From assembly GCF_040054535.1 (NCBI RefSeq), contig NC_090781.1, positions 10,915,982 through 10,979,981 of the forward strand: 64,000 nt of DNA, read 5' to 3'. This document shows positions 7,661 to 53,686 of the stretch, one piece after another (position 1 is the stretch's first letter; each line of letters opens with the position of its first letter). The translations under genes were made by a program, and so were the position numbers. Under the pieces are notes generated by a model that did no database searches, was not told the DNA's origin, and saw nothing but the letters and a program-made list of their open reading frames with translations. Source of the DNA: Antennarius striatus (taxonomy: Eukaryota > Chordata > Actinopteri > Lophiiformes > Antennariidae).

Positions 7661-9274
7661 TCATTCCCACCAGGTGTCCATTCGCCGTACGCGTACTCTC
7701 TGCTTGTAATGATATTCTTTAAGGTGCTTTTTTAAAGCGTTTGGAATGGGAAGCATGTTAATGCCATCATAGGTAGTGCAGCTGCTTATGGTTGCTCTGC
7801 AGATATGTTGCAGAGTGAAGGCCTGTGTTCGGTGAATGGGGTTAGACAGCAGAGGCTCAAAAAACATGCAAGAGTTGGGGTCCTTGTAGTGCTCCAGCAA
7901 TCCTGTCACGGTGGTAGCATGGAAGACGCTGGGGTCATGCACGTCAAAGCTAAAATTGTGGTTCCACTGTTCAATGCGTGCATGTAGTGAGCGGCCGTAG
8001 CGGCGGAAGCTAACTGAGAAGAGGTAGTCTTCCTGGGCAGAGTCACGCAGGAGGAAGGTGCCTTCAGGCTTTCCTTCTAGGAGTGTTTCCGCCTCGTAGC
8101 GATCCATGACACCCCAGTAGCAAGGGAGGTTTGTGATCTGCAGCAGGTCTGGAACTAAACAGTGAATGTAATCAATCTGAGTATGGATGCGGTAGCCATC
8201 GTGAGATTTGTGATGTTCAGCCTGAGGAAATATGGCCCTGGAGGGCACGCTGGGGGCCGAAACTTCTGGCTCAACCGGAGGGTCTGACACACTGTCACAT
8301 GGCTGGACAGAGGCTGAGGCCACTACCTCATCCAGAGTGTCCAAACAGCTCTGAAGCAGGAGCTGGTGCTGCTGCTGTCTTTGGAGAAGAAGCTGCTGTT
8401 GGGAGGGTCTTTCAGCCCCAGATAACTCATTCATACCATGAGCCAGTTTAGGGCCATGCTTGTAGAGAGGATTGATTTGGGCGGTCACCTCAAATGTGTG
8501 GATCTCCGCATTGGGTGGTGGGTCAACACCTTGTTCTATGCTGATGCGCCTGCGCTCTCGTAGCCTGTCGTCTATGTCCTCCACCACAGTTGCCATGGCT
8601 GAAGTAGGAGCACTGCACACTACTGCCGAATCAAGCATGGGAGGCTGAGTAATGGGGGCTGTGTGTTGCTTAATGAGATACCACTTCTGTGCCAGCTCTG
8701 ATCCGACAGGGAAAGGGCAGTCATCCAACATCAACTCACTGAGATGGATCTTGCGCCTTGACGAGGCGCAGGAGGCTGATGATGAAAGAGCTTGGGGAGT
8801 TGCCGCTGGTGTCACTGCAGTATGTGTCTTTATTGGGAAACACTGCCCCATTGCATCTTGGATTTTTTGCCTGAGAGTGCGACTACTACTTGAGCCTCTG
8901 CTCTCACTTTCACTTGGTGCAGATAACTCCATAGCAGAACTAACTTTTCCCAGTTCCGGTCCTGCTGCTGTCTGTTCTTGTCCTAGTAATGAGGGAGTGA
9001 CTTCAAACCCTTGCCATTTCCAACTGTCCTTCAGAGAGGTGGAAGATTTGTCTCTTGTCTCTAGGTCGCTCAGTAGTTCACCATACTCAAAGCCATCACT
9101 GACAGGCCTCTCAGCTGCAGGTTCATGGGACGCAAGGCCTTTTTTCTTTCCCTTCCCACCTTTTCGCCCACTGCCCACATCTCGCCTCTCTTCTGACCGG
9201 CTCTGTCTCACCTTGGGACGAGCTCCTCTCTCACGATCTTTCCCTCTGTTGCCTGACTCCTTTGGTAAAGACAT
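7661..9274 (-). CDS. socs9: Suppressor of cytokine signalling, SOCS4/5/9 subfamily (537 aa)
   Basis: A cytoplasmic adaptor that binds phosphotyrosine through an SH2 domain and recruits elongin B/C and a cullin E3 ligase through its SOCS box, damping cytokine or EGF receptor signalling (family knowledge). One uninterrupted coding exon. The N-terminal region of about 380 residues is long and low-complexity, as in SOCS4/5. It carries [16 protein letters not shown], a [14 protein letters not shown] block typical of SOCS5, and a Q/L-rich run near residues 300-320. The SH2 domain lies at about 385-480 with FLLRDS at 407-412. The SOCS box starts at LQHICR (about 488) and continues to [10 protein letters not shown]. 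The N-terminal block [11 protein letters not shown] and the end are SOCS4-like while the middle is SOCS5-like, so assignment within the subfamily is open. The symbol socs9 rests on the neighbouring samd4b and gmfg. A splice acceptor at about 9423 suggests a separate 5' UTR exon, and the leader has short upstream ATGs. Confidence 0.9.
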
Positions 9275-9422
9275 GATGGATTATGAGGTGGATCAGCAGC
9301 AGCTGAACCACTCCTGGGAACTGCGCTGGAAACTTCTAACTGCCGTTAACTTTTGGCAATAGATTTCCGATTCGCATCATTTTCTTTGTCCATACATCAT
9401 GGCCAATGGAGGTTAGAACGAC
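9275..9422 (-). other. 5' UTR part of the SOCS coding exon
   Basis: A T-rich tract followed by TAG at 9423-9425 (minus strand) reads as a splice acceptor about 148 bases upstream of the start codon, so the coding exon probably begins at 9422. Short upstream ATGs lie within it, for example an ATGATG that opens a frame of a few codons. Single-coding-exon genes with a noncoding first exon are usual for SOCS4/5. Confidence 0.5.
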
Positions 9423-26308: not shown

Positions 26309-27882
26309 ATGGTAGGTGAAACTCATGTGATTGCCTTGAAAATTTGTGCTTTTCTCTTGAATTTGACCAGATTTGATGAACTGTCAGTTATACGCATTGT
26401 GTAGAGTATTTTTTTGTTTCCATTGCGACACAAGTTGACTATCCCCTGTGCTCTTTCACACAGGAAGCTACATTGTTGCACAGACATTTCCTGCCCTCAA
26501 TATGTCAGAATAGTGTTATGAACATTTAATGCATCTCAAAAGATCAAGACGCCTGTTCTGGTGTTTCTATTTCTGATTTTTATACCTGTCAGTTTTATTT
26601 GCCCAAGGGTCTGGAACATCATGAGGCATTAAGACTTTTCAGATTGACACTGCATCAGTTATTTTATCTTTTTATATTTTGCAGTCAAGCTCTCTGGTTG
26701 TGTGTGAAGTGGATGAAAGTCTGACAGAGAAGCTGAAAAAGTTTAGGTTTCGAAAAGAAACCAACAATGCTGCCTTACTAAGTAAGTATAATTTGCTAAA
26801 TAATAATTCTATAGATACTTCTATGTCAATTTTAATTGTTTGGAACTTAAAAAATAAAAATTCACATTTAATACAAGTGTCAGTGTTTTAACATTTTCTG
26901 ATTTCATTTCTCAGTTAAAATAGACATGAAGAAAAAACTTGTTATCCTTGAAGAAGAATATGAGGCAAGTACATTTATTTTTGCATTTGAACTTTTTTGG
27001 TGTTCTCAGAATCCAAAGTCATAGAGTCAACTTTGGCTTTCAGGACATCTCACTGGATGACTTGAGAGGTGAACTTCCTGAACGGCAACCCAGATATCCT
27101 GACTGGATGTCTCATAAATATATGAAAAGCTTCATAGTGTAGCAATTACATCTCTTCACTTGTACGGTAACATTCTAACAAAGTTGATCTTCCTTGACGG
27201 AGCGGTTGTGCACATTCATTGTCTACAGTTACAAATATGTCCATGATGATGGGAGGGTCTCTTACCCGCTATGTTTGATTTTTTCCAGTCCAGAGGGTGA
27301 GTACACATAGCATCTGTTTATAATTTACTGGTACTTTTGACTGGTAAAAGTTCATTTCGATTCTCACAGGATGTAAGCCAGAGCAGCAGATCATGTATGC
27401 AGGCAGCAAGACTCAGTTGGTCCAAACTGCAAAGCTGACAAAGGTGCCGTCTCACAGTTCTGAGTTCACAGCTCAGGTGTTATGTTAAAGAATGGGTTCA
27501 ACAATCTGGATGGCTAGACTGTAAAATTAAATATTCGTTTTGAGACATGCCACTAAAAGTTAATATGCCAAATACATTGTCCAGCTGATCCGTCTGAAAT
27601 TTGGTCTGTCATACATTTATTTGAACCTTCACCTCATCAAAACATTCAAGTATTGAATGTAGGTTATTTTTAATATGCTTTTGCCTTAGCATGTCTTCAT
27701 TTAGCAGCCATTCATTGGTCAGCTTCTTTCTGAGCTTCTTTATTATTATTTATTTATTTTTTATGACACTGCAATCAGAATTTTAATGTGACATCTTCTT
27801 TTTCTCTGAGGTCTTTGACACAAGACATGCTGAGGAATTGACGGAAGAATGGCTGAAGAACCAATTGTCATTCTTTCGCTGA
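26309..27882 (+). CDS. gmfg: Glia maturation factor gamma, ADF-homology actin-debranching protein (142 aa)
   Basis: Cytosolic ADF-H protein that binds the Arp2/3 complex and promotes debranching of actin networks (family knowledge). Seven exons: 26309-26311 (ATG only), 26685-26781, 26915-26964, 27044-27093, 27214-27296, 27370-27443 and 27811-27882. They join to exactly 142 residues, the length of human GMFB/GMFG. Conserved pieces are [59 protein letters not shown] and the end [20 protein letters not shown] and the terminal LSFFR favour GMFG over GMFB. The start is fixed by exon 1, which ends in ATG directly before GTAGGT. Intron 3 has a GC donor. Intron 4 can only be joined as AT-AC and has U12-type signals. 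The gene diverges from samd4b and converges on paf1. Confidence 0.95.
27094..27213 (+). other. gmfg: AT-AC (U12-type) intron 4 of gmfg
   Basis: The 120-base intron starts ATATCCTG and ends CAC. A branch-point-like TTCCTTGAC lies at 27190-27198, 16 bases before the 3' end, which is within the distance used by the minor spliceosome. Only this AT-AC junction restores the conserved [13 protein letters not shown] sequence; no GT-AG alternative does. Confidence 0.88.

Positions 27883-45193: not shown

Positions 45194-53686
<8,493 letters not shown>

Follow-up and report, generated by a model that had tools for sequence, protein, structure and literature searches.

The termini of U12-type introns are AT-AC or GT-AG. 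Introns of the AT-AC minor type start with the 5′ splice site ATATCCT, and U12-type 5′ splice sites commonly carry TT at +8/+9; the U12 branch site lies near the 3′ end and has a consensus of approximately TTCCTTRAC. The lack of a polypyrimidine tract upstream of the 3′ splice site is a further criterion of the U12 type (PMC3584512, in the part available). According to the accessible portion of PMC2831892, the U2-type AT-AC introns of sodium-channel genes carry G at +5, and 156 of 180 U12-type introns are conserved in all eight vertebrate lineages. The closest described counterpart of the intron analysed here is intron 4 of human GMFB. The available text of PMC7244321 calls it a minor intron, describes its use as such in minigenes and prints its ends as TCGatatcc and ttctttaacttgagaaaaacCTT. 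As far as that text goes, GMFB already provides a published case of a minor intron in the GMF family. No other paper linking GMFB to a U12-type, AT-AC or minor intron turned up in the literature searched.

For GMFG, no statement of a minor intron was found in the literature searched; U12 databases and supplements lay outside the search. GMFG and ‘minor spliceosome’ occur in unrelated places in the accessible part of PMC9014605, and in that of PMC3931319 GMFB and U12 co-occur only in unrelated lists. The main text of PMC9501576, dealing with zebrafish Zrsr2, has no mention of gmfb or gmfg. As described in the portion of PMC10150485 available, blood stem cells of zebrafish need gmfg for their development; a splice-modifying morpholino for the gene is mentioned, and neither ‘exon’ nor ‘intron’ occurs in the main text.

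The gene studied here lies in a window of 64,000 nucleotides (the whole stretch of DNA that was analysed), located on contig C6 of a genome of 548 Mb and 42 contigs that, judging by the genes of the window, is that of a ray-finned fish. The coordinates of its features are listed in Table 1. With 140 residues as the query, the top PDB matches of the protein were GMF gamma (E 2e-65) and GMF beta (E 8e-65), E-values that barely discriminate gamma from beta; a Pfam search found a Cofilin_ADF domain (E 9e-30). All three minus-strand pieces scanned downstream of the gene matched Paf1, and one of the two upstream minus-strand pieces matched Vts1 (28.6 bits, cut-off 27) and is presumably SAMD4. Since this neighbourhood resembles what we take to be the human gene order, SAMD4B–GMFG–PAF1, and the protein scores hardly decide, the gene is likely to be gmfg and not gmfb. 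Elsewhere in the window, a 539-aa open frame on the minus strand (7664–9280) contains SOCS, SH2 and SOCS-box domains (Pfam) and is assumed to be a SOCS4/5-like gene.

Table 1. Features of the gmfg gene and of its intron 4 (positions in the window; a slash marks an exon–intron boundary)
Feature	Position	Strand	Details
gmfg coding region	26309–27882	+	7 exons, 142 aa; ATG 26309–26311, stop codon end 27882
Coding exons 1–3	26309–26311, 26685–26781, 26915–26964	+	exon joins giving the ORF
Intron 3	26965–27043	+	GC-AG, 79 nt, GAG/gcaagt, read as U2-type; U1 duplex -7.4 kcal/mol
Exon 4	27044–27093	+	50 nt, 3′ end CCC AG/
Intron 4	27094–27213	+	AT-AC, 120 nt, phase 2; junction enumeration
U12-type 5′ splice site ATATCCTGA	27094–27102	+	+5 = C
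First in-frame stop (TAG) on retention of intron 4	27140–27142	+	after 15 added residues
Branch-site motif TTCCTTGAC	27190–27198	+	A at 27197, likely branch nucleotide
3′ terminal AC of intron 4	27212–27213	+	junction enumeration
Exon 5	27214–27296	+	83 nt, 5′ start /A TTC ATT GTC
Coding exons 6–7	27370–27443, 27811–27882	+	exon joins giving the ORF

Exon 4 sits between two non-GT introns, GC-AG intron 3, with an otherwise good donor, and AT-AC intron 4. The donor of intron 6 (AAG/gtgccg, in the region 27441–27480) is the weakest of the five U2-type donors, with a U1 duplex of -5.3 kcal/mol; an alternative in-frame donor, CAG/gtgtta at 27477, lies 33 bases further on and would lengthen the protein by 11 residues.

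Between exons 4 and 5, intron 4 reads ATATCCTGACTGG...TTCCTTGACGGAGCGGTTGTGCAC and splits the Arg codon of PERQPR. Possible junctions were enumerated by combining exon-4 ends at 27062–27149 with exon-5 starts at 27150–27261, with an intron of at least 40 bases, and the joined proteins were scored against GMF gamma (PDB chain 4jd2_H). The full enumeration contained 1973 joins that were in frame and stop-free. No joins reached the top score, 191, except three adjacent registers (27093/27214, 27094/27215 and 27095/27216), which correspond to one identical mRNA. These registers have the termini AT-AC, TA-CA and AT-AT, respectively, and AT-AC is the sole recognised terminal pair among them. The junction is fixed in this way because the GMF protein is conserved. 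The initial annotation had placed a 120-base intron here, starting with ATATCCTG and ending in CAC, which proved exact to the base. It had also described this as the only junction that restores the protein; this holds for the mRNA, which is a single one, but not for the register, as three registers give it and AT-AC is merely the only recognised one.

GT-AG or GC-AG termini were found in eight of the 1973 joins, which scored from 165 down to 69, compared with 191 for AT-AC, and were rejected. The best GT-AG junction (27108/27229, score 165) would define a U2-type intron at 27109–27228, likewise of 120 nt. It leaves frame and protein length unchanged but turns FIVYS into YPDWI, destroying a stretch that is conserved between GMF gamma and GMF beta. 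Its donor, GAT/GTCTCA, does not pair stably with U1 (+0.7 kcal/mol, versus -5.3 to -11.5 kcal/mol at the five other gmfg donors), and such an intron, which is very unlikely, would leave ATATCCT, TTCCTTGAC and the AT-AC intron of the paralogue described below unexplained.

ATATCCT at 27094 agrees with the conserved U12-type 5′ splice site (A/G)TATCCT, and the +8/+9 positions are GA, departing from TT. The intron runs from ATATCCTGA to TTCCTTGAC, which fits TTCCTTRAC, and then over 15 bases to its end at CAC; the A of the motif is 16 bases from the last base of the intron, just as reported for a branch-point-like motif in the initial annotation. By eye, no pyrimidine tract was seen in the last 15 bases (ggagcggttgtgcac). 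AT-AC termini by themselves do not prove U12 dependence, and the available part of PMC2831892 indicates that they do not settle the spliceosome, which would allow for removal by the major (U2) spliceosome, as with some sodium-channel introns. Unlike U2-type AT-AC introns, with their G at +5 (PMC2831892, as far as accessible), the gmfg intron has C at this position, within ATATCC. It also possesses a full U12 branch motif, and the U1 duplex at its AT donor reaches only -1.6 kcal/mol. The U2-type reading was rejected on the +5 C and is extremely improbable.

Over both strands of the window, there is a single place where ATATCCT, TTCCTTRAC and AC follow one another at intron-like spacing. In 200 dinucleotide shuffles of the window, this triple signal occurred four times in total, about 0.02 per window. 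The chance of finding it over the whole window is, by itself, not negligible; the case is built on the location that the protein dictates. When, with the junction fixed, the 120 bases of intron 4 underwent 200,000 mononucleotide shuffles, the triple signal appeared 0 times; single signals appeared in 18 (start), 89 (branch motif) and 11,649 (AC end) of the shuffled sequences. A looser scan, using (A/G)TATCCT with TCCTTRAY over distances of up to 5 kb, returned intron 4 and three other candidates, at 47495 (+), 23374 (-) and 23056 (-).

Paired with the 5′ portion of the U12 match from the same genome, the branch motif TTCCTTGAC gives a duplex of -7.3 kcal/mol, leaving the A at 27197 unpaired. 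The duplex is weaker than that of the consensus branch site (-9.5 kcal/mol) and stronger than that of the published branch region of human GMFB (-6.5 kcal/mol). At the 5′ site of intron 4, the duplexes with U6atac (-4.6 kcal/mol) and U11 (-3.5 kcal/mol), computed without enforcing the register, are weaker than those of the paralogue on contig C17 (-8.2 and -4.9 kcal/mol) and no better than those at the rejected GT site (-5.2 and -3.4 kcal/mol). Since they do not distinguish the true site from the rejected one, these energies were not used as support. The same genome contains predicted genes for four minor snRNA families, with matches above the Rfam cut-off for U12 (1), U6atac (8), U11 (1) and U4atac (1); there were no matches to these families in 14 control genomes of unstated identity, which is a weak control. 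Four of the U6atac matches (L010–L013) are located about 9 kb apart on the minus strand of contig C19 (1773862–1800690) and are mutually identical at 126 to 128 of 128 bases; they form a tandem array of U6atac-like genes. The four others are elsewhere in the genome.

A protein search of the genome yielded six matches, comprising five exons of gmfg and one locus on C17 (L007, reverse strand). This GMF-like locus is probably gmfb; among the matches listed near it are reading frames taken to be galectin-3-like and plastin-like, neighbours consistent with this name. Its intron reads CCCAG/ATATCCTTTC...GGGAAC/ATATGTC, the exon resumes with ATATGTCCTC, and the join of exons 4 and 5 yields PERQPRYVLYSYKR. 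Like the gmfg intron, it is AT-AC, of phase 2, begins at CCCAG/ATATCCT and splits the same Arg codon of PERQPR; it differs in its length of 333 nt, in a 5′ site nearer to the consensus and in a weaker branch motif, the region around CCCTTAGC being a poor match with a U12 duplex of -5.3 kcal/mol. Alignment of the two genes gave identity at 39 of 52 columns in exon 4 and 58 of 85 in exon 5. The identity of the first seven intron bases stands out because just 95 of 323 columns match past the first 10 bases of the intron; this letter-by-letter comparison of whole introns covers one other gene, the paralogue in the same genome. Parts of the C17 locus are divergent (DTCLVKKVEEFRFRKKTNDAAIIS; GSKLTLVNSINCTKV), and its exon 3 was not recognised with the motifs tried.

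The presence of an intron at the same place in the paralogue also argues against an assembly error or a dead gene, in which case the 120 bases would be no intron. No point in favour of this explanation was found, the joined gmfg ORF is intact over 142 residues, and of the five other introns of the gene four are GT-AG and one is GC-AG; this explanation has next to no probability.

The protein-fixed junction and the AT-AC intron at the same place on C17 support the AT-AC U12-type reading proposed in the initial annotation, and human GMFB intron 4, a published minor intron, also starts with atatcc (PMC7244321, available part). With high confidence, 27094–27213 can be regarded as an AT-AC U12-type intron of gmfg that most probably goes back to the ancestor shared by GMFB and GMFG. 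Given the C17 paralogue and human GMFB intron 4 (PMC7244321, to the extent available), the most probable view is that the GMF family has conserved this minor intron for a long time. The human letters TCG/ and /CTT, known from the printed ends only, are compatible with a divided Arg codon and a Phe codon after it (accessible text of PMC7244321); for this reason, the AT-AC intron is most likely older than the divergence of GMFB and GMFG.

During splicing, the 5′ end AUAUCCU would be recognised by U11 and then by U6atac, U12 would pair with UUCCUUGAC, leaving out the A at 27197 as the branch nucleotide, and the 3′ cut would be made after CAC. Removal of the intron by the minor spliceosome would restore a 14-residue stretch of the protein. 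An unremoved intron would add 15 residues followed by the in-frame TAG. As this stop lies 154 bases ahead of the end of exon 5, the usual distance rule for stop-triggered mRNA decay suggests that the mRNA would probably be degraded. Skipping of exon 4 would shift the frame, since the exon has 50 bases. The signals point to U12 dependence of intron 4 and, through it, to a likely dependence of gmfg expression on U11/U12 activity, as had been suggested at the outset; failure of the minor spliceosome is predicted to lower gmfg mRNA. A drop of this kind could have consequences for the development of blood stem cells, which requires gmfg in zebrafish (PMC10150485, part available). Gene-finders limited to GT-AG introns would misplace the exon 4/5 junction.

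A broader interpretation is that the GMFG copy is uncatalogued, that the two GMF genes of vertebrates, which regulate branched actin, have each preserved an AT-AC intron older than their duplication and are jointly throttled by the activity of the minor spliceosome, and that GC-AG intron 3 and AT-AC intron 4 of gmfg flank a 50-nt exon the loss of which shifts the frame. Taken as a whole, this interpretation is doubtful. Intron 4 is real but ordinary, a conserved minor intron that adds at most one new entry for the gene and the species; it opens no new question, because the GMFB intron is already published and has been used as a model minor intron. It does provide a clean example of a minor intron retained in both copies of a duplicated gene.

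Compared with AT-AC U12-type introns in general, as described in the available parts of PMC3584512 and PMC7367187, gmfg intron 4 has the same termini, 5′ site and branch motif, as well as a short distance from the branch site to the 3′ end and no pyrimidine tract; it differs in having GA, and not the common TT, at +8/+9. The comparison with human GMFB intron 4, based on the accessible text of PMC7244321, is closer. The human intron belongs to a paralogous gene of another species, follows an exon ending in TCG and not CAG, and has the branch motif ttctttaac where gmfg has ttccttgac. Both introns occur in the same gene family at the exon 4/5 location, start with atatcc, end with ac and carry a U12-like branch region close to the intron end.
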